This document shows positions 26,521 to 35,902 of a DNA stretch of 35,902 nt, piece after piece. Source of the DNA: Rubripirellula sp. (GTDB lineage Bacteria > Planctomycetota > Planctomycetia > Pirellulales > Pirellulaceae); assembly GCA_016779185.1 (NCBI GenBank), contig JADHOA010000007.1, positions 1-35,902 on the forward strand, written 5' to 3'. Both the position numbers and the translations under genes were made by a program. A model generated the notes under the pieces. The model ran no database searches. It was not told where the DNA came from and worked only from the letters and a program-made list of their open reading frames with translations. Numbering within the stretch: position 1 is the stretch's first letter; each line of letters opens with the position of its first letter.

Positions 26521-27810
26521 TCACGACTGTAATAGTCCCCTGCAGTATGCCGGAAACTCCAGCATGTTATCGGGTAAAATGCCTGGGCCAATGATTAGAG
26601 GGCCTTGATCTTTAGAGGAAGCTAATAGTCCGTGACTGCCGCCTACAAGTCTTGGATTTAATGGCACAATGTCCATGCGATAGCGAAAACCTGCTTTTTT
26701 TTGGATGAGGCGTGCGATTGCTCTCGTTTTGCTAGAGGCGAAAAGTTCACAGGGGTCGTAGCCAGGTTTTCGATGAATGTCCACCGTTCGTGCAAAGTCC
26801 GGGGCATGCATTTCGTCCAACCAGTAGTAGTAGGTGAACCACGAGTTCTCGTTGGCAAGAACAATCAGTTCACCACTTCTGGAATGGTCTAACTGCAAGT
26901 CACGAGGATCCACAACTGCGGCTACCCCGGGAACGGATTCCACGATGCGCCTCACTCGATCAATATCGGATTGGCTTCGAATATAAAGATGCGCGATTTG
27001 ATGATCCGCAACCGCAAAGGCAAGGCTGTCACCTGGTGCTAGAGTTTCCCCAAACGGACCGCTTCGGACTTTTAGTAGGCCTGCATGACGCAAGTGGATA
27101 TTCAAGTGTATGGGGTTAGTTACTGGAGTAAGGCCGTATTCAGACACTACAACTACTTGAGCATTAATTTGTTCCGCCGCATTTAGAATGGTTGCGACAC
27201 AATCATCAAGTTCTCGTACCCGTTCAATCTTTGGATCGGTGTATCGTTGGAAGTCGTAATCGAGGTGAGGTAGGTATGCGAGCGTTATTTGCGGTTTTTT
27301 TTCACGCATAACCAAAGCGGTTGCCTCTGCAATCCAGCGACTGCATGGGAGTCCTGCATTGGGTCCCCAGAAAGTGAAAAAAGGGAAGGGGCCAAGTTTT
27401 TCAACCAGTGAACAACTTGTTTGGTCAATGATGTCAAAAACTTTCGATCCATCGCATCCGTAGTGAGGCTTCGGCGTGGCGCTGTATCTAACAGGGGCTG
27501 ATTGATTGAACCACCAGAACATTTTTGCGGTTTCAAAGTCTTCGTAAAACTTTTTACCCTCAATAAGACTAGAAGCTTGCTGCCAAAAACGGATTTCCGA
27601 AGTGTCGCGATAGTACCATCCGTTCCCGACGATCCCATGCTTGGACGGGGGGAGTCCCGTCAGCATGGTTGCCTGAGAGGTGCAAGTCACTGCAGGTACG
27701 GGGCTTGTCCAAGCAGACACACCGCCGATCGAAGCTGTTTGGGCGGCATGTTGAAGGAGTTCGGGCGTTAGCCCCACTGCGTTGATGATGCAAAGTGGTC
27801 GAGAGGCCAT
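26521..27810 (-). CDS. Alkaline-phosphatase-superfamily (nucleotide pyrophosphatase-like) protein with altered metal ligands
   Basis: 429 residues, no signal peptide. The fold signature is clear: 'INAVGLTPELL' (N-terminus), the nucleophile region 'PAVTCTSQATMLTGLPPSKHGIVGNGWY' (Thr42 probable nucleophile), 'LAYLPHLDYDFQRY' (180-190), 'VVVSEYGLTPVTNPIHLN' (221-236), 'AVADHQIAHLYI' and 'VGGSHGLL'. Several usual metal ligands are replaced: the first Asp is Asn10, the His of the D-x-x-x-H motif is Gln188, and the usual 'SDHG' reads 'SEYG'. I recall a subfamily with this 'SEYG' form in other bacteria, so the changes may define a subfamily rather than decay. The ATG overlaps the stop of the AGCS symporter gene (TAATG), indicating translational coupling. 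Confidence 0.85.
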   Translation of the reverse strand: MASRPLCIINAVGLTPELLQHAAQTASIGGVSAWTSPVPAVTCTSQATMLTGLPPSKHGIVGNGWYYRDTSEIRFWQQASSLIEGKKFYEDFETAKMFWWFNQSAPVRYSATPKPHYGCDGSKVFDIIDQTSCSLVEKLGPFPFFTFWGPNAGLPCSRWIAEATALVMREKKPQITLAYLPHLDYDFQRYTDPKIERVRELDDCVATILNAAEQINAQVVVVSEYGLTPVTNPIHLNIHLRHAGLLKVRSGPFGETLAPGDSLAFAVADHQIAHLYIRSQSDIDRVRRIVESVPGVAAVVDPRDLQLDHSRSGELIVLANENSWFTYYYWLDEMHAPDFARTVDIHRKPGYDPCELFASSKTRAIARLIQKKAGFRYRMDIVPLNPRLVGGSHGLLASSKDQGPLIIGPGILPDNMLEFPAYCRGLLQS

Positions 27811-29672
27811 TACGCAGTCTCTTTACCCGTGTATGGCTTCATTTCGCCGGACTTATATTTTCCCCAATATTCATCCAGTCGCCTTTTTACTAATCCACTT
27901 AGTAGGAAAACGCCGAGGAGATTCGGGAAGCTCATTCCTAGGATCATCAAATCACTGAATTCGAGAATATTTCCTCGGGTGACGATCGATCCCAAAATGG
28001 TGAAGACGAGAAAGAGAAGTTTGTAAACAATCGAAAACTGCTCCCCAAACATTTCAACCCAGCATCGCTCACCGTAATAAGACCACGAAATGCAGGTAGA
28101 GAAAGCAAAGAGTACGACTGCACCAAAAAGGATGTAGCCAAACCACGTGTATCCGCAACTTCGGAAAGCGACTAGCGTCATCGCCGCACCACGTTTAGTC
28201 TCGATAGTTTCCTGAAGAGATTCTTTCGCAGCGGAAATATCCGATGGGCTCACTTCACCAGTTGGTGTACTGCCTTGTACTGCGGCAATGACGGTCGCCG
28301 GGCTTTGGCGATCCACGAACGTCTCAGCGTCATACGCGCCGCTCACAACCAGAACAAGCGCTGTGATGGTGCAGACCAATACGGTGTCGATGAAAGGTTC
28401 CAGCAGCGCTACGATACCTTCGCTAACCGGCTCATCTGTCTTCGCCGCAGAATGGGCGATTGCAGCTGATCCAACGCCCGCTTCATTACTGAATACAGCA
28501 CGCTGTACACCAATGATCACGACACCTAGGAATCCTCCATAAGCTGCCTGTGGTGAAAAAGCTTCGGTAATAATTTGAGTGATTGCAGCAGGGATTTCAG
28601 ATGCATTGATTGCAAGGATGTAGAGGGCTGCAGAGACATACGCCACACACATGACTGGAACTAACTTTCCAGCAACCGCTCCAATACTTTTAATTCCTCC
28701 GAGGATCACTGATCCTACGGCAATTGCCATCACAATGCCGTAGAGATAGGGATAGTCTTGCAGGATAGTAACTTCCCCTCGAATCGCTTCAAGTGATTGG
28801 CCAACTTGGAACGCGTTTCCACCACCAAAGCTCGCGCCAACACAGAGAATCATGAATAGAAGTGAAAGCACTTTTCCTAGCTTTGCCATTCCTATGTCAG
28901 CTAACCCAAATTTTAAGTATCGCATTGGACCGCCGAGCACATGGCCATCGCTGTCCTTGACTCGATAAATTTGACCAAGCGTGCATTCACTAAATTTGGC
29001 TGTCATACCTATCAAGCCAATCATGATGATCCAGAATGTTGCACCCGGCCCGCCAAGTCCAATTGCAATCGCGACACCGGCAATATTTCCTAGGCCAACC
29101 GTTGCAGAAAGCGCAGCCGAGAGCGCTTGGAAATGCGAAACATCACCCTGCTCGTTTGGGTTGTCATAGATGCCTCGTGTTAAATCGATTGCGTGTCGAA
29201 AAGCTCGGAAATTGATAAAGCCCATCCGTAGCGTTAGAAAGGTTGCTCCAAACAATAGCCAGACAACGACAAACGGCACCGATATGCCATTTGGGTAAGC
29301 CGGTGTAATCAGCCATCCGGGGAGGGTCTCGGTGGTCGTCTGGCCGTCTTTGTCGGTGGTTTGTTTCTCCGTTGGTCCGGTTCCGAAATCAAAAAAAAGC
29401 ACTGATGCAACAGGAGAAACTAAATAGTCTCCAAAGGCTCCATCCAGTTTTTGAGTCCAGTTAACTGTTTCTGCCGCAGGATTATCCGAGTCTGCATCGG
29501 GTGTTTTGCTGACAACAGCACCGTTCTCGTCACTCGCCGCTGACTCAGTGGCTGGTGCGTCGTTCACACCGGTTTTGTTTTCCTGCGCTGATAAAGGTGG
29601 GCAGAAAAAGATAGAAAATGCGATTAATACGCATGCCAGCATGGACTTCAAAACGCTTTTGAGATGATTCAT
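27810..29672 (-). CDS. Sodium:alanine/glycine symporter (AGCS family) with long exported N-terminus
   Basis: About 620 residues, clearly longer than the 450-550 of ordinary AGCS transporters. The family motif is present: 'SAALSATVGLGNIAGVAIAIGLGGPGATFWIIMIGLIGM', together with 'VFSNEAGVGSAAIAHSAAKTDEPVSEG' and 'RGNILEFSDLMILGMSFPNLLGVFLLSG'. About eleven transmembrane helices are expected. The extra length is a signal-peptide-like start ('MNHLKSVLKSMLACVLIAFSIFFCPPLSAQ'), about 100 low-complexity acidic residues, and an insertion near 440-490 ('ASPATVIAAVQGSTPTGEVSPSDISAAKESLQE'-like region). It couples substrate uptake to Na+. I prefer the ATG at 29672 over the track's TTG at 29678. It is the first gene of a two-gene unit with the AP-superfamily gene. 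Confidence 0.93.
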   Translation of the reverse strand: MNHLKSVLKSMLACVLIAFSIFFCPPLSAQENKTGVNDAPATESAASDENGAVVSKTPDADSDNPAAETVNWTQKLDGAFGDYLVSPVASVLFFDFGTGPTEKQTTDKDGQTTTETLPGWLITPAYPNGISVPFVVVWLLFGATFLTLRMGFINFRAFRHAIDLTRGIYDNPNEQGDVSHFQALSAALSATVGLGNIAGVAIAIGLGGPGATFWIIMIGLIGMTAKFSECTLGQIYRVKDSDGHVLGGPMRYLKFGLADIGMAKLGKVLSLLFMILCVGASFGGGNAFQVGQSLEAIRGEVTILQDYPYLYGIVMAIAVGSVILGGIKSIGAVAGKLVPVMCVAYVSAALYILAINASEIPAAITQIITEAFSPQAAYGGFLGVVIIGVQRAVFSNEAGVGSAAIAHSAAKTDEPVSEGIVALLEPFIDTVLVCTITALVLVVSGAYDAETFVDRQSPATVIAAVQGSTPTGEVSPSDISAAKESLQETIETKRGAAMTLVAFRSCGYTWFGYILFGAVVLFAFSTCISWSYYGERCWVEMFGEQFSIVYKLLFLVFTILGSIVTRGNILEFSDLMILGMSFPNLLGVFLLSGLVKRRLDEYWGKYKSGEMKPYTGKETA

Positions 29673-29996
29673 TAGCAAGATAAACTGAGATAAAGAGTTA
29701 GATTTGGCATGCTCGTCGCGGGATCGCTGAGAGATTGCCTAGCTTGGAGTAGACGATTGTCGCCCAATTGTCTAACGCAATGTTCGTCTCAGATCAATAA
29801 AATCAAATCAACACTACTGCTAACAAGGAGCATTTTCGGTCCAGCGTATTCTTCCCAAAGGCTTGACCCTGCAAATGAGGTTACCCAATCAGGCGTTGGG
29901 TCGGTGGCTGGTGGTAGGTATTAGAAGCTTTCGAAGCAATTTGCTACCAAGATCACCCACCCTTAGAGGGGTTTGCTGCGGCGGGCGTTAAAGAAG
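29673..29996. other. Intergenic region between AGCS gene and tRNA-Phe
   Basis: About 324 bases; both neighbours are on the minus strand, so it holds the tRNA 3' end and the AGCS promoter. A small hairpin, ACCCAA (29883-29888)-7 bases-TTGGGT (29896-29901), could end the tRNA transcript but has no T-run. ORF 29709..29924 has no protein character and I reject it. No riboswitch was recognised. Confidence 0.45.
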
Positions 29997-30069
29997 TGGT
30001 CAGGGGCGGGCTCGAACCGCCGACACCGGCCTTTTCAGGGCCGTGCTCTACCAACTGAGCTACCTGACC
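29997..30069 (-). tRNA. tRNA-Phe (GAA)
   Basis: 73 bases that fold as a full cloverleaf on the minus strand: 7-bp acceptor stem GGTCAGG/CCTGACC, D arm GCTCAGTTGGTAGAGC, anticodon stem CGGCC/GGCCG with loop CTGAAAA (anticodon GAA), a five-base variable loop, and the T arm GGCGGTTCGAGCCCGCC. The discriminator base is A. The 3' CCA is not encoded; the next bases are CTT, so CCA must be added after transcription. It stands alone, with no other tRNA adjacent. Confidence 0.97.
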
Positions 30070-30333
30070 AAAAATTGTATTCTACTCGTCTCGAATCTAA
30101 TAAAAGTAGTCCGAGATGTCCGATGAATCAACTCTTCGGATGGGGATAGTAGGGTATGATGCAGCATATCGTCAATCGGATGCCCAATGATTGAGGCCTA
30201 CTGTCTAGGATTTTGATAACTTTATCGATGCCCCTCTTTAGGGTGTTTTGGGTTGGTTTTTGAGATTCGGTTCGCCATTGTCCATTTTCGCGTGTAGCTT
30301 CGTCCATCGCGCGTGCATCATCACAGTTCACAT

Positions 30334-32055
30334 ATGATTTCACTCATTATCAAGAAACGACAACCTCGGCCCGTTAGTTTCCTGGTCGTGCGAGTCTTTT
30401 TGCTGTTTTCACTCCTAGCTGGTTACGCGAGTGGTTACACACCCACGGATCCGGTCGTTACGAAGATGGTCGACCGCGGCCTTGCTTACTTGGAAACTCT
30501 TACAGACAACGATCTGCCAGGCGAGCCTGGTAGTTTTTCAGGGTCATCAGGTGTGCCCGTATTGGTTGCCTATGCTCATCATAAGTGCAGGCATGATCCT
30601 GAGCATCCGATCGTCAAGCGAGGTCTGAGCATTGCGGAGCGAATTGTCGGTTCTCTTGCGTCGCGCGGGGCAAGTGGTGCGAAGCGAAATTATGAGGCTG
30701 CCGTATGCGTGCTGTTGTTTGCTGAAGTGGATCCCGACCGTTATCGACCTCAGATGGAAACGGTCCAGAAGTTTCTCTTTGATTACCAAGGCCGGAATGG
30801 ATCGTTTGGCTATCCGATGTTTGACGAGATGTCTGAGGGCGACATCTCACAAACTCAATACGCATTACTCGCGATTTGGACTTTAGATCGCAATGGATTG
30901 CCACTGGATTACGCCAAGGTTGCCAGTGCACTTCAGTGGCTGATGCGAGTCCAGGACGTGCAGGGCGGTTGGCCGTACTTTGCACGAGATTCGGGACCGG
31001 GGCGACCGCTTACCTCGCAGACCGGAGCGAGAAACCATAGTCACTCTGGAGTCAGTCAGTCGATGGCGATTGCGGGTGGTAGTAGTGTTCTAATTGCCGG
31101 CGATGCTCTGAGGATTTGGGGAGATACCAATGAGGACAAAGATCCAGGGATCGCGGGGCTTCCAGAGGCGATCAAGCTCTTCAAAGAAGACGAAAATAAA
31201 TCACGCCGCAGTCGAGTAAAAATTGCACCGGAGCCAGTTCTAGGTTCGGTGACTTTGCTGAATCGTTGGAGGCAAGCTAATCCAGCCTCTCAGGCTGACG
31301 CTTACTATTTTTATCGTCTCTACACTCTCGAGCGTCTCGAGAGTTTTTGGGAGATCGCTAAAGGGTTGCCGAAGGATTCTAGCCCAGCTTGGTACAACCA
31401 AGGCGTAGACGAGCTTCGTAAGCTTCAGCAAGGAGATGGTTCCTTTAACGGAAAAGAGACCTGGGAGAGTAAGCCAATCGCCACGGCTTTCTCGCTGTTG
31501 TTCCTAATTCGAAGTACACAAAAGACTATCTTTACGATGAGCCAAGGAAGTTTGGCGGGAGGTTATGGACTGCCGAGCGACACGACTGATATTCGGGTAG
31601 ACGGTACTCAAATTAAAGGTCGGCCTGTCGCTGCCCAAGTGACGGACATGCTTGATATTTTGGAGAAGGACGGGGCAGGGGATACCGAAGGGAAATCTCT
31701 TCCAGATGATTTGCAGCTGTCGAAGGACCCCAAAAGTCGTGCGGCTCAACTTGACCGTCTAGAACGCCTGGTGAGGGGAAGTAAGTCATGGCAGGCAAGG
31801 CGAGTTGCAGCTCAGCTTCTGGCCAGAAGTGATGACCTTCGAGTGGTTCCATCGCTCATTTACGCCCTAAGTGATCCAGATGGCCCTGTGAAGCTCTATG
31901 CACGAGATGGATTGCGGTTTCTGAGCCGAAAGTTTGATGGATATGGAATGTCGGACGAGCCGTCTCGGGTTGAAATCGAGCAGGCTCAGCAAAAGTGGCG
32001 GGACTGGTATCGAACTATTAACCCTAAGTACGTTTTCTTGGACTATGACCTTTAG
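30334..32055 (+). CDS. Secreted prenyltransferase/squalene-oxidase-repeat protein with HEAT-like C-terminus
   Basis: About 573 residues. The ATG at 30334 gives a good export signal, 'RVFLLFSLLAGYASG', so I prefer it to the track's GTG (30313). Alpha/alpha-barrel repeats with QW-like motifs follow: 'GRNGSFGYPMFDEMSEGDISQTQYALLAIWTL', 'DVQGGWPYFARD', 'GDGSFNGKETWESKPIATAFSLLFLIRST'. I find no DxDD catalytic motif of squalene-hopene cyclases, so it is probably a binding or scaffold protein outside the cytoplasm rather than a cyclase. The last 110 residues look like HEAT helices ('SWQARRVAAQLLARSDDLRVVPSLIYALSDPDGPVKLYARDGLRFL'). It heads a same-strand array with a TonB-like protein, ExbB and two ExbD genes. 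Confidence 0.85.
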   Translation: MISLIIKKRQPRPVSFLVVRVFLLFSLLAGYASGYTPTDPVVTKMVDRGLAYLETLTDNDLPGEPGSFSGSSGVPVLVAYAHHKCRHDPEHPIVKRGLSIAERIVGSLASRGASGAKRNYEAAVCVLLFAEVDPDRYRPQMETVQKFLFDYQGRNGSFGYPMFDEMSEGDISQTQYALLAIWTLDRNGLPLDYAKVASALQWLMRVQDVQGGWPYFARDSGPGRPLTSQTGARNHSHSGVSQSMAIAGGSSVLIAGDALRIWGDTNEDKDPGIAGLPEAIKLFKEDENKSRRSRVKIAPEPVLGSVTLLNRWRQANPASQADAYYFYRLYTLERLESFWEIAKGLPKDSSPAWYNQGVDELRKLQQGDGSFNGKETWESKPIATAFSLLFLIRSTQKTIFTMSQGSLAGGYGLPSDTTDIRVDGTQIKGRPVAAQVTDMLDILEKDGAGDTEGKSLPDDLQLSKDPKSRAAQLDRLERLVRGSKSWQARRVAAQLLARSDDLRVVPSLIYALSDPDGPVKLYARDGLRFLSRKFDGYGMSDEPSRVEIEQAQQKWRDWYRTINPKYVFLDYDL

Positions 32056-32146
32056 TGCTTGCGCGATTCGCGACATATTAAGCTTCAATTTCCAGTATTG
32101 AAGCTGTCTCAGTTCTTGTTTTTCTGTCGTTTCAGGTTCTTATCGC

Positions 32147-33076
32147 ATGGCATCGACTCCTACCCCGTCGACCGCAACCTCCATCGAAAACCCTAGGGTC
32201 GCAGCAAGACTGCGCGAGAGGGAAAAGCTGCGGACCAGTCGATTTGATTCGGTCACCTCATTGTTTATGGCTTTGATTATTTTCATTGGAACATTTGTTT
32301 CGATGTTGTTCATCATTTGGTTGACAAGCCGCTGGTCATTTCCGCCGCTTGCGATTGAGCCCATCATTGAGAACCCTGCCGGTAGAGGAGAGAATCCGGA
32401 GGGATTTGAGCGAGACTTCGAACCTCCTGGAGCTGAGGAGGTAGAGGAGTTAATGGAACCAACTTTGCAGGATACTTTGGAGGCAGTCACGGATGCCGTG
32501 AGCTCTGTAGCCGGGGCATTGGCGACAACGGACACAGCGGCAACAGCAACCACCTCGGGGACAGGGGCAGGCGACAGTCGTCCCCCGGGACCACCCGGTG
32601 AGGGCGAGGATATTATTCCTAGGTTTGAGCGATGGCAACTTAATTTTACCGCAAGGGATGTGCGGTCGTATGCCACTCAACTCGATTACTTCAAGATTGA
32701 GCTTGGTGCCATTGGCGGATCGATACAGGGTGTTGATATCGCATCAAATCTCTCGTCGCGTGTCCAGAAAAGTAGGATTCAAGACACCGCTTCTGAAAAG
32801 AGACTTTACTTCATGTGGAATAGTCCCAGCCCACTGATGGAGTTTGACAGGCAATTGCTTTCGTCAGCAAGTATCGAGCTTGCTAATCGCCAAATGTTGA
32901 AGTTTATACCGAAGGATCTCGAGAACCAACTTGCTGTGATCGAGTTGGAATACTCAACCAGTAAAGGTCATCCTTCCGTCACCGAAATTGCAAAAACCGT
33001 TTTCGAATGTAAGTCAAATGGAGGGGACTATGCTTTCGAGGTTGTTAGCCAACGCTATCGAAAGTCACGAAAGTAG
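32147..33076 (+). CDS. Single-pass membrane protein with TonB-like topology, unknown family
   Basis: 309 residues; not a family I recognise. Residues 1-36 are basic and cytoplasmic, a single transmembrane helix spans about 37-60 ('VTSLFMALIIFIGTFVSMLFIIW'), then an extended acidic/Pro/Ala/Thr-rich linker runs to about 157 ('FPPLAIEPIIENP', 'ERDFEPPGAEEVEELMEP', 'TATTSGTGAGDSRPPGPPGEG'), and a folded domain of about 150 residues ends the protein ('FERWQLNFTARDVRSYATQLDYFKIELGAIGG'). The topology and position (directly before ExbB/ExbD) match TonB or TolA, but the C-terminal domain lacks the sequence landmarks of either. It may be the transducer of the adjacent ExbB/ExbD motor. The gap to the upstream gene is 91 bases. 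Confidence 0.75.
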   Translation: MASTPTPSTATSIENPRVAARLREREKLRTSRFDSVTSLFMALIIFIGTFVSMLFIIWLTSRWSFPPLAIEPIIENPAGRGENPEGFERDFEPPGAEEVEELMEPTLQDTLEAVTDAVSSVAGALATTDTAATATTSGTGAGDSRPPGPPGEGEDIIPRFERWQLNFTARDVRSYATQLDYFKIELGAIGGSIQGVDIASNLSSRVQKSRIQDTASEKRLYFMWNSPSPLMEFDRQLLSSASIELANRQMLKFIPKDLENQLAVIELEYSTSKGHPSVTEIAKTVFECKSNGGDYAFEVVSQRYRKSRK

Positions 33077-33127
33077 AGTTCAAGTATTTTCCTCCTCGCT
33101 GATCTAATAGAAGGTGCAAGCTTTTTT

Positions 33128-33147
33128 CCACAGTTGTTTTCCTGTGG
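33128..33147. repeat. Small stem-loop between TonB-like gene and exbB
   Basis: CCACAG (33128-33133) and CTGTGG (33142-33147) are perfect complements around an 8-base loop, directly after 'agctttttt'. The T-run lies before rather than after the hairpin on the plus strand, so it is not a standard terminator; it may be a weak attenuation or mRNA-processing element within the array. Confidence 0.3.
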
Positions 33148-33221
33148 TTGCGTTTAAGCGACTTTGACTTAATCAGCGCGACACAACTAGTTTTCCATGT
33201 TTTTTAAGGACTGAACGCCTG

Positions 33222-33878
33222 ATGCTGCTAGCCTCTTTATTCGACATGATTTCCAACGCGACTTACGGAGCACTTGCTGCTGTTGCGCTGTGGGGTCTTT
33301 ATTGCATCGTGATTGTTTGGACTCGAGTTAATAAAAAACGATTCAAGTCTGAAGAAGATCAGGATGTCTTTATGGATGACATCGATCAAATGCTCGATTC
33401 CGGTGACTACGAAGGTACGTCAGAATATTGCGAAGGCGACGGACGAGCGATTCCACAAATTGTTGAGATGGCAATTCGTCATCGTGAAATGGGTTACAAA
33501 AAGGCTCGGCAATTTGTCATGGATCGATTTCAACGTGATGTGATGAGCGACATCGAGTATCGCTTATCTTGGGTTAGCACTGTGATTAAGAGTGCTCCGA
33601 TGATCGGATTGTTCGGTACGGTGTTCGGGATGATGGGAGCTTTTGAGACGTTGGCGACTTCGGAGTCAGTTGAGCCAAAGTTTCTTGCAAAGGATATTAA
33701 CATCGCACTGCGGACGACTGCTTGCGGACTGGCAATCGCGATCCCACTGATGATCTTGGTAGCGAATGTAAATATCAGGATTGCCAAGATGGAGGATTTG
33801 GTCGGTGCCGGATTGGCTAGGTTTATGGCATCGTATCGAGCATCGTTAGCCAAGTTTTCGGGCGACTCAAGAAAATAG
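33222..33878 (+). CDS. exbB: MotA/TolQ/ExbB proton channel family protein
   Basis: 218 residues, typical ExbB/TolQ size. TM1 is near 11-33, a cytoplasmic loop of about 80 residues follows ('DIDQMLDSGDYEGTSEYC...VEMAIRHREMGYKKARQFVMDRFQRD'), then TM2 with the signature 'APMIGLFGTVFGMMGAFETL' (125-144) and TM3 with 'ALRTTACGLAIAIPLMILVANVNIRI' (about 162-187). It forms the pentameric channel that encloses an ExbD dimer and converts proton flow into motion. Two ExbD genes follow on the same strand. The name follows family usage; whether it powers TonB-, Tol- or other-type work is not determined. Confidence 0.95.
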   Translation: MLLASLFDMISNATYGALAAVALWGLYCIVIVWTRVNKKRFKSEEDQDVFMDDIDQMLDSGDYEGTSEYCEGDGRAIPQIVEMAIRHREMGYKKARQFVMDRFQRDVMSDIEYRLSWVSTVIKSAPMIGLFGTVFGMMGAFETLATSESVEPKFLAKDINIALRTTACGLAIAIPLMILVANVNIRIAKMEDLVGAGLARFMASYRASLAKFSGDSRK

Positions 33879-33995
33879 CTGCGTCGTCAGCGAGCGTAAC
33901 CTTTTTTAAAACTCACAGAGTTAGTTCGCCCAAATTGGTAAGTGCACAACGATTCATCAACGACGAAGGACTCCTGAAGAACAGGATTGAATTCA

Positions 33996-34478
33996 ATGAG
34001 TGAGCTAGATGATGTGATGGACGATGATGATGATTTTGTCATCCCGCGAAAGAAACGCGAGGATGATGAGATGGATATCACGCCGATGATTGATATCACT
34101 TTCCTTCTGCTGATTTTCTTTATCGTTTGTTCCACCATGGACCCAACCAAAATTGGGAGCATCCCTGAGGCGGATAATGGGTTGGCAATCTCTGCAAAAA
34201 ACTCTGCGGTGATTTTTATCAAGCCGTCCGGTAGCGACAGCGTGGTTTTGAGTACTCCTGATGGAACAGAATTCAGCTCAGATGAGAATGAGCAAGCGAC
34301 TGAAATCATCGAATACATCACGAGCGAGATGGAAAAGTCGCTCGGGACTCCCAAGGAGCATGTGATGTTGTTTGGTGATTCTGAAGTAAAAGTCGGCCAA
34401 GTCACAAGAATTCAGAAGCTGATTGGTGATGCTTTTGAGGACTTGGATTCGACATATATCGCTGTCAAGGAACAGTGA
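33996..34478 (+). CDS. exbD: ExbD/TolR family biopolymer transport protein, first copy
   Basis: 160 residues from the ATG at 33996 (the track uses a TTG three codons earlier). A very acidic N-terminus ('SELDDVMDDDDDFVIPRKKREDDE') precedes the transmembrane helix 'MDITPMIDITFLLLIFFIVCSTMD', in which Asp33 is the conserved proton-carrying residue. The periplasmic domain follows ('PEADNGLAISAKNSAVIFIKP...VMLFGDSEVKVGQVTRIQKLIGDA'). It lies 117 bases after exbB and 130 bases before a second, differently built ExbD. Identity is firm. Confidence 0.94.
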   Translation: MSELDDVMDDDDDFVIPRKKREDDEMDITPMIDITFLLLIFFIVCSTMDPTKIGSIPEADNGLAISAKNSAVIFIKPSGSDSVVLSTPDGTEFSSDENEQATEIIEYITSEMEKSLGTPKEHVMLFGDSEVKVGQVTRIQKLIGDAFEDLDSTYIAVKEQ

Positions 34479-34608
34479 TTCGAGTTTGATAGTCGAATAG
34501 ATGCAATTTGAATTTAACCGGGAACCGGAAAGCCGAGTCGCTCATCAAGAGGACCTGCGATCACTCCTGGTTTCAAAAGTTGTTAAGCCAAATAATTAAG
34601 CGTTTGTT

Positions 34609-35355
34609 ATGTCGATTCAATTCACGTGTGAGCATTGTAATGCGACTCATCTGGTCAACGATCGGTTTTCCGGTAAACGCGTTCGGTGCCCAAAATGTGA
34701 ATCTCCTGTAACCGTGCCGGATAGGAATCAGGGCATCGAGTTTTTGGATGATCCATCCGATGATGACCTACTTGGTGCACAGGATCGCCCCGCAGCAAGT
34801 GTTGATCTGCCGATCGATCAGGTGCTTGACTCAAGTTCGTCTGTAATGGCTTTCAGTGATCAAGGCGACCGTTTAGCCGAGACGGTTCTGCAAGAGGATG
34901 AAGATGAAGAGCCAGTGCTCGCTCGTAAGCGTCGTCCTGAAGAAGAGATGGACATGACTCCGATGGTGGACGTTACGTTTCTCTTGCTGATCTTCTTCAT
35001 GGTGACTGCTGCCTTTAGCTTGCAGAAGTCGATCGAGATGCCCCGTCAACAAACCGACGCACCAAGTACGAGTGTGCAGGAAGAGGAGGTTGAGGAGCTG
35101 GATATGGTTGAACTTCAAGTCGATGAGTTTGGCTCTTTCCTCGTTATGGCGCCCGAATGGGAACGCGAAACACCCGGAAAGCAAAATCTGATCTCAGCTT
35201 TGAAGGAAGCAATTGCGGGAAACACAGATGGAATGCGATTAGTAGTGAAGGTGCATGAAATGGCCAAGCTGAAATCGCTTGTGGATGCAATGGATGCAGG
35301 AACAATTGCAGGGTATGCACAGCTCGAAGTGATGCAGGTAGAGGAGTTTGATTGA
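34609..35355 (+). CDS. ExbD family protein fused to an N-terminal zinc ribbon, second copy
   Basis: 248 residues, much longer than a plain ExbD. Residues 1-38 form a zinc ribbon of the MJ0042/zinc-ribbon type, 'CEHCNATHLVNDRFSGKRVRCPKC' (Cys7, 10, 27, 30). A 70-residue acidic linker leads to the ExbD helix 'EEEMDMTPMVDVTFLLLIFFMVTAAFSLQKSIEMP' with conserved Asp121, then a periplasmic domain ('MVELQVDEFGSFLVMAPEWERETPGKQNLISALKEAI'). In ExbD topology the N-terminus is cytoplasmic, so the ribbon would face the cytosol, an arrangement absent from proteobacterial ExbD. It may heterodimerise with the first ExbD inside the ExbB pore. The zinc ribbon is seen directly; the role is inferred. Confidence 0.94.
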   Translation: MSIQFTCEHCNATHLVNDRFSGKRVRCPKCESPVTVPDRNQGIEFLDDPSDDDLLGAQDRPAASVDLPIDQVLDSSSSVMAFSDQGDRLAETVLQEDEDEEPVLARKRRPEEEMDMTPMVDVTFLLLIFFMVTAAFSLQKSIEMPRQQTDAPSTSVQEEEVEELDMVELQVDEFGSFLVMAPEWERETPGKQNLISALKEAIAGNTDGMRLVVKVHEMAKLKSLVDAMDAGTIAGYAQLEVMQVEEFD

Positions 35356-35455
35356 GATGAACTCAAGCCACACAATTTTATTTTTGCGGTAAAAAATCGG
35401 TTCGCCACCAACCCGCGTTTTATAGCCCCCGACGTTTATAGATTCTTGACAAATT

Positions 35456-35902
35456 ATGTTAGCAAATGAACTGATTGATCGATTGGAGAGCCTCGGACTA
35501 CTCGACCAAGAGATTATCGAGGCATTGCGTGAGCAACTTGTGCAGGGTGGTACTCGAGTTACTCCCGAAGCGGTTGCAAAGCTGCTCGTCGATAACGGCC
35601 ATCTCACTCGCTTTCAAGCGACCAAGTTGATCGGCGAGTTGCGAAGTGGGGAATATGATTCCGAAACAGAAGGATCGGGGGGACTCATCGAAGAATTGGA
35701 AGTCTTGCCCGAAGACGATATTGAGCCGATTGAGGTCGAGGCCGAAGAGGTAATGCCGGTTTATGAGGCATCTACAGAGCTCTATGAATCGTTCGAAGAA
35801 AGTGAAGTCGTAGCCGTTGAAGCCGTAGAGCTTGGAGAGGATGAGGCGAAGGTCGATAGGCCGAAGCCCAATCGAAAAAAGCCAGATGTAGAGAAGTCGC
35901 AG
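35456..35902 (+). CDS. N-terminal part of acidic protein of unknown function, cut by window edge
   Basis: 149 codons without a stop from the ATG at 35456 to the window end; not in the ORF track. The first 65 residues form a helical segment, 'LIDRLESLGLLDQEIIEALREQLVQGG...VAKLLVDNGHLTRFQATKLIGELRSGEYD'. The 'NGHLTRFQATKL' phrase resembles N-terminal segments I know from planctomycete serine/threonine kinases and other multidomain proteins. A very Glu-rich stretch follows ('EELEVLPEDDIEPIEVEAEEV'), ending in a basic patch 'KPNRKKPDVEKSQ'. It begins 100 bases after the second ExbD on the same strand, so it may belong to the array. Its function needs the missing C-terminus. Confidence 0.75.
   Translation, partial: MLANELIDRLESLGLLDQEIIEALREQLVQGGTRVTPEAVAKLLVDNGHLTRFQATKLIGELRSGEYDSETEGSGGLIEELEVLPEDDIEPIEVEAEEVMPVYEASTELYESFEESEVVAVEAVELGEDEAKVDRPKPNRKKPDVEKSQ

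Follow-up and report, generated by a model that had tools for sequence, protein, structure and literature searches.

The window is the whole of contig C46 of Rubripirellula sp., 35,902 bases of a genome that is 66% complete in 341 contigs. At its right end, from 30313 on the + strand, stands a gene module built around an ExbB/ExbD motor and a single-pass protein of 309 residues, TD309. We lean, with modest confidence, towards reading it as an ExbBD-driven, proton-driven trans-envelope machine of a third kind, with its own transducer and a putative periplasmic target. The reading draws on conserved gene order, on the separate standing of the module ExbB and on homologues of TD309 in a sister family, f23.

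Gene order and distribution

In most loci read, from Pirellulaceae genomes and further relatives, the order is toroid, TD, ExbB, ExbD, in some a further ExbD, zinc-ribbon ExbD, propeller protein, SBP5 and F4. By the relatives the complement is eight genes, two of them beyond the contig end of the window. An order of five genes, to be checked for conservation in planctomycete genomes, had been named by the first-pass annotation of this DNA. Conservation holds, far beyond the genus, but the number of genes is eight, with the propeller protein and two secreted proteins of binding-protein fold added. Since the order is conserved outside the genus, the case named there as fatal, that the genes are not neighbours in related genomes, does not apply.

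A phylum sample of 294 genomes was searched for F4, TD and the module ExbB. F4 and TD occur in the identical 52 of 294 genomes, namely the window genome and 51 of its class. No class member is among the listed non-matches, and outside the class there are marginal, non-overlapping matches alone. TD and F4 apparently span the entire class. Three of the 52 genomes belong to f23, where the homologues are only weak and are scattered. By a strict rule SBP5 and F4 are neighbours in 46 genomes, and in three more with a fragmentary SBP5 match. All of this lies within a single class, which makes co-occurrence weak evidence on its own; gene order is the stronger. Beyond the phylum, genomes were searched with six short TD309 peptides only. 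No description of the module or of the TD family was found in the literature searched, which left most subscription journals and all preprints outside its scope. The salt-induced exbB/exbD genes of R. baltica (RB12053/RB12055; PMC2754498) could not be tied to the module, and neither ExbB nor ExbD is named in the main text of the P. limnophila TraDIS study (PMC10632474).

The motor

ExbB (33222..33878, +; 218 residues) is an ExbB/TolQ-type proton-channel subunit and matches MotA_ExbB (PF01618, 1.9e-21; Pfam). Its channel residues T133, T166, G129, G132 and P175 are invariant among 33 relatives. ExbD1 (33987..34478, +; 163 residues) has a TTG start at 33987, an ATG at 33996 and its membrane Asp in PMID. 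ExbD2 (34609..35355, +; 248 residues) has a cytoplasmic N-terminal CxxC...CxxC zinc ribbon and its membrane Asp in PMVD. Both match PF02472 (6.3e-14 and 1.4e-20). The membrane Asp motif, as a strict pattern, is present in 169 of 177 ExbD relatives. Of the eight outside the pattern, one (L036) is truncated where its contig stops, six (L108, L121, L157) show by eye a T-A-M-[IV]-D variant, and one further (L166) was not inspected by eye. The invariant ExbB residues and the ExbD pattern bear out the earlier observation that channel motifs and membrane Asp are kept in ExbB and in both ExbDs. The zinc-ribbon ExbD named there is borne out in its ExbD domain and weakly in its ribbon (34609-34740), for which MJ0042/Zn_ribbon_4 matches at 1.7e-4, under the curated cut-off. 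A divergent ExbD elsewhere (L116:11202-11948) has a weak GYF_2 domain in place of the ribbon. Ribbon and GYF_2 ExbDs presumably recall the ribbon and GYF of Myxococcus GltJ.

With the profile of the module ExbB, 47 class genomes score 200-334 bits, and nothing outside the class exceeds 121 bits. A maximum-likelihood tree separates the 33 module ExbBs, across a branch supported at 97/100, from 26 paralogues of genomes of the same kind. Very long branches in two of the paralogue rows restrict what can be read from the tree to the module clade. The module ExbB is, as judged from sequence, a distinct orthologue. The MotA/ExbB family has 6-10 members per genome in eight complete genomes (G003, G027, G032, G042, G052, G111, G202, G234). 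The same eight have at most one TonB each, so that most planctomycete ExbB motors are without TonB.

TD309 as candidate transducer

TD309 (32147..33076, +) is a candidate force transducer by hydropathy and predicted structure. It has a single transmembrane (TM) segment, N-inside, with an N-terminal net charge of +3, an acidic, Pro/Gly-rich linker of 96 residues and a C-terminal alpha/beta domain (158-305) predicted with pLDDT mostly about 90. The TM segment is found by hydropathy in 73 of 73 TD relatives. TD lies less than 1 kb from the module ExbB in 40 of 47 genomes. Profile and fold searches of Pfam, NCBIfam and PDB give no credible match; the best Foldseek E is 0.19, at a probability of at most 0.16. 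Top Foldseek matches (PMS2, PCNA and topoisomerase ATPase domains) were rejected at TM-scores of 0.10-0.14. Neither Pfam nor Foldseek matches the C-terminal domain to vWA, and hhalign against planctomycete TonB C-termini, with few TonB rows, gives 0.05%.

The most informative support for TD309 as a putative transducer comes from f23. A TD homologue is present in 49 of 61 f23 genomes. An ExbD pair within about 1.5 kb is shown in 12 of 30 f23 loci; in five larger loci chosen from those 12 and read, TD is convergent with ExbD-ExbD-ExbB (5/5), and other module genes are not seen around them. A TM histidine stands four residues past a Ser/Thr in 20 of 28 f23 TD homologues. Histidine at this TM position is reported as the conserved motor-binding residue of TonB, TolA and vWA transducers (SHLS; PMC12204202). 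Four planctomycete TonBs, taken as positive control, all have it, with Ser at the preceding position in three and Ala in one. The C-terminal domains of the f23 and window TD groups are homologous (hhalign 99.7%). In L249-L253 of f23 a dnaK gene precedes the TD homologue, which is convergent with ExbD-ExbD-ExbB. L211 retains dnaK-TD, and an ExbB/ExbD gene was not found there in the 13 kb read.

Several observations weigh against this role. The TM histidine is absent in 48 of 48 aligned members of the window's TD subfamily. Topology is the whole basis on which TD309 would transfer force, because Foldseek gives it no structural relative. The single-pass topology is shared by the propeller protein, which could receive the force instead. 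Paralogues of TD with no motor genes beside them are present in L064 (3170-4135) and in L080-L083 (around 10000). The C-terminal domain of TD occurs, too, in fusions with secreted LRR (L113:8204-10486) and LamG/ConA-like (L103:9998-11620) proteins, and thus reads as a mobile planctomycete domain. Two class genomes, G055 and G268, have TD and other parts of the module without a module-type ExbB; in G268 (L206:5124-6002) a lipobox-like N-terminus replaces the usual TM segment of TD. The lone paralogues of L064 and L081 are followed by a sigma-factor-like and a Ser/Thr-kinase-like gene, as judged by eye.

On balance TD309 is the likeliest transducer, one that would couple to the motor without the histidine. 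The role first suggested for the 309-residue protein stands in so far as it is the best candidate, from its place beside the motor and from the histidine and motor neighbours of the sister family, but the canonical motor-binding histidine is missing in this lineage. That TD309 is unrelated to force transducers, being without the histidine, was considered and is weakened by the same f23 features. The two lineages, one with the histidine lost and its sister with it present, offer a natural experiment on arm-motor coupling.

Toroid, propeller, SBP5 and F4 proteins

The toroid protein (30313..32055, +; 580 residues from GTG) is a secreted alpha/alpha-toroid of prenyltransferase/squalene-cyclase-like fold with C-terminal HEAT repeats, assigned by family profile; signal peptides were assigned by eye. 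The ATG at 30334 lies seven codons inside the GTG-started frame. Taken singly, the protein matches toroid and HEAT families only below threshold. The family profile finds squalene-hopene cyclase at 1e-9, HEAT/alphaRep below 1e-20 and also alpha-2-macroglobulin toroids. A squalene or terpene cyclase was rejected, with DxDD somewhere in only 8 of 39 rows and no conserved Cys or His; the protein therefore reads as a binding or scaffold protein. Its proposal as the transducer's specific partner is not upheld: several genera, among them those of the loci labelled Stieleria sedimenti and Rhodopirellula baltica, do not have it adjacent to TD.

The propeller protein, of about 1120 residues in relatives, starts with a conserved cytoplasmic domain and continues through an acidic linker, a single TM segment and TPR to a PQQ/BamB-like beta-propeller. 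Its N-terminal domain looks by eye like the N-terminus of a Ser/Thr-kinase-like protein encoded nearby (L120:18762-20000, -), and on this likeness may be a shared cytoplasmic adapter domain. In G055 (L124:10584-11951) the protein is without its propeller. Joint loss of propeller and motor, suggested by G055, was rejected, as G268 keeps the propeller region without a module ExbB.

SBP5 is secreted, of about 790 residues, with TPR and SBP_bac_5 (PF00496, 2.3e-15); by profile, DppA, NikA and AgaA are among its best PDB chains. ABC permease and ATPase genes are absent from the conserved module. F4 is secreted, of about 600-660 residues, with no Pfam match and nothing by sequence profile. Its predicted N-domain resembles type-II periplasmic binding proteins (PtxB, PEB3, SsuA, LysR effector domains), at Foldseek probabilities mostly above 0.9 and up to 1.0; whole-query TM-scores are low because one domain alone aligns. 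Beta-sandwich and helical parts follow in the predicted structure. Among the genes of the conserved module, none was recognised as coding for an outer-membrane protein or a lipoprotein.

Locus and contig end

All six same-strand frames listed by the first-pass annotation are present on the + strand between 30313 and 35902. The last of them (35456..35902, +, open at the end) had been called an acidic multidomain protein. The frame is right but the identity is not: as 35902 is the contig end, it is a fragment of a much larger protein, the N-terminal 149 residues (cytoplasmic domain and acidic linker) of the propeller protein, assigned by frame and relatives. The rest of the propeller gene, SBP5 and F4 are on contig C226 (locus L156) of the same genome, which starts inside the propeller gene. 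C46 and C226 presumably join across a gap of roughly 165 codons. A promoter and terminator scan gave signals at or below shuffled expectation. Upstream of the module are genes of a Type I phosphodiesterase/nucleotide pyrophosphatase and a sodium:alanine symporter (26521-29678, -), neighbours kept in many relatives, and between these and the module a tRNA-Phe gene (29996-30069, -).

Proposed mechanism and alternative explanations

In the proposed mechanism an ExbB pentamer would be the channel, with a mixed ExbD1/ExbD2 dimer inside; the motor family is 5:2, from which a 5:1:1 stoichiometry would follow. TD309 would be anchored beside the motor, with its linker of about 96 residues across the periplasm. 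Gene order and topology suggest that its C-terminal domain would hand force to a periplasmic complex. The load would be the membrane-anchored TPR/propeller protein with the secreted SBP5 and F4 and, in many genera, the toroid. In composition (motor, arm, propeller, TPR) the module is nearer Tol than Ton. From this Tol-like composition, with no TonB-dependent receptor in the module, a putative role in moving or loading envelope components is favoured over import through a TonB-dependent receptor.

The propeller protein, itself single-pass with a large periplasmic TPR/propeller domain, might receive the motor force in place of TD309, which would then be a regulatory or structural neighbour. In G283, G222 and G192 the propeller gene stays beside the motor and TD lies elsewhere, and G055 is without the propeller as well as the module ExbB. 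However, the propeller TM segment has no histidine in 57 of 57, the f23 motor keeps TD and not the propeller, and G268 retains the propeller region; we regard this explanation as unlikely. Mere clustering, with ExbB-ExbD serving a distant TonB and the rest unrelated periplasmic proteins, is most improbable. Same-strand grouping at gaps of about 90-150 bp is by itself no proof of co-function, but the order is kept across the class and the module ExbB is a separate clade. Moreover, 9 of 13 genomes are without TonB_C, and in three of the remaining four it lies no more than about 4 kb from a TonB receptor. Order conservation has already largely refuted this explanation.

A doubtful but substantive alternative is cargo uptake, in which the motor would power the capture of peptides or polymers and their entry into the periplasm, SBP5 and F4 being the cargo binders. 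The two secreted solute-binding folds speak for it, with no ABC permease in the module, as does dextran uptake into the planctomycete periplasm, which is abolished by carbonyl cyanide m-chlorophenylhydrazone (CCCP) and whose route is unknown (PMC5394234). Against it, the module has no outer-membrane protein, ligand binding is predicted from folds only, and in f23, to which the dextran-taking Gemmata may belong, propeller, SBP5 and F4 are not clustered with the motor. On this explanation the module could be the engine of proton-gradient-dependent macromolecule uptake in planctomycetes. The fuller proposal, that the module drives planctomycete macromolecule handling as a third ExbBD-driven system beside Ton and Tol, its transducer and secreted partners of binding-protein fold bringing large substrates into the periplasm on the proton gradient, is quite unlikely.

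No use for most planctomycete ExbB-family motors was found in the literature searched. The module gives one such motor a class-wide partner set and a transducer family whose C-terminal fold was not found in PDB. Replacement of Tol-Pal in TolB-less bacteria and the powering of CCCP-sensitive macromolecule uptake become tractable by gene deletion in Planctopirus limnophila.

Comparison with known systems

The claim that the motor is distinct from Ton and Tol is sustained by domain counts. A search of 15 class genomes for TolB_N, with positive controls, found it in none; TonB_C was found in 4 of 13. TonB receptors are present elsewhere in the genome in 9 of 13; the module itself has neither TonB_C nor a TonB-dependent receptor. 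There is no Pal gene among the module genes; a genome-wide Pal search was not made.

With Tol-Pal (TolQ-TolR-TolA-TolB-Pal-CpoB) the module shares an ExbB/TolQ and ExbD/TolR motor, a single-pass transducer-like protein, and a periplasmic beta-propeller and TPR in the cluster. It differs in two different ExbDs, a membrane-anchored propeller, the additional SBP5, F4 and toroid, a transducer C-terminal domain that is not TolA-like, and the absence of TolB_N and Pal genes. With Ton (ExbB-ExbD-TonB and receptor) it shares the motor family, the membrane Asp and the transducer topology; unlike Ton, it is without receptor and TonB_C, its TM histidine is lost in the window subfamily, and planctomycete TonBs are separate genes. 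The Myxococcus AglRQS gliding motor with GltJ has one TolQ-like and two TolR-like subunits and a zinc ribbon on a cytoplasmic N-terminus, all of which the module shares. The NCBIfam GltJ match (E 0.011) covers the ribbon only, far under the cut-off, and no search for other Glt proteins was made.

Force transducers with a vWA domain, accompanied by TolQ and a TolR-like pair, were described in 2025 from the Planctomycetes-Verrucomicrobia-Chlamydiae group (PMC12204202). They share with the module one TolQ-like and two heterologous TolR-like proteins, a TPR protein and a transducer of TM segment, linker and globular domain of non-TonB/TolA fold. They differ in that TD309 has no vWA match and no SHLS histidine, and in that the module has propeller, SBP5 and F4. 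Because the motor family is known and such transducers with TolQ and paired TolR have been described, the module is a variant within a known motor family and not a categorically new machine.

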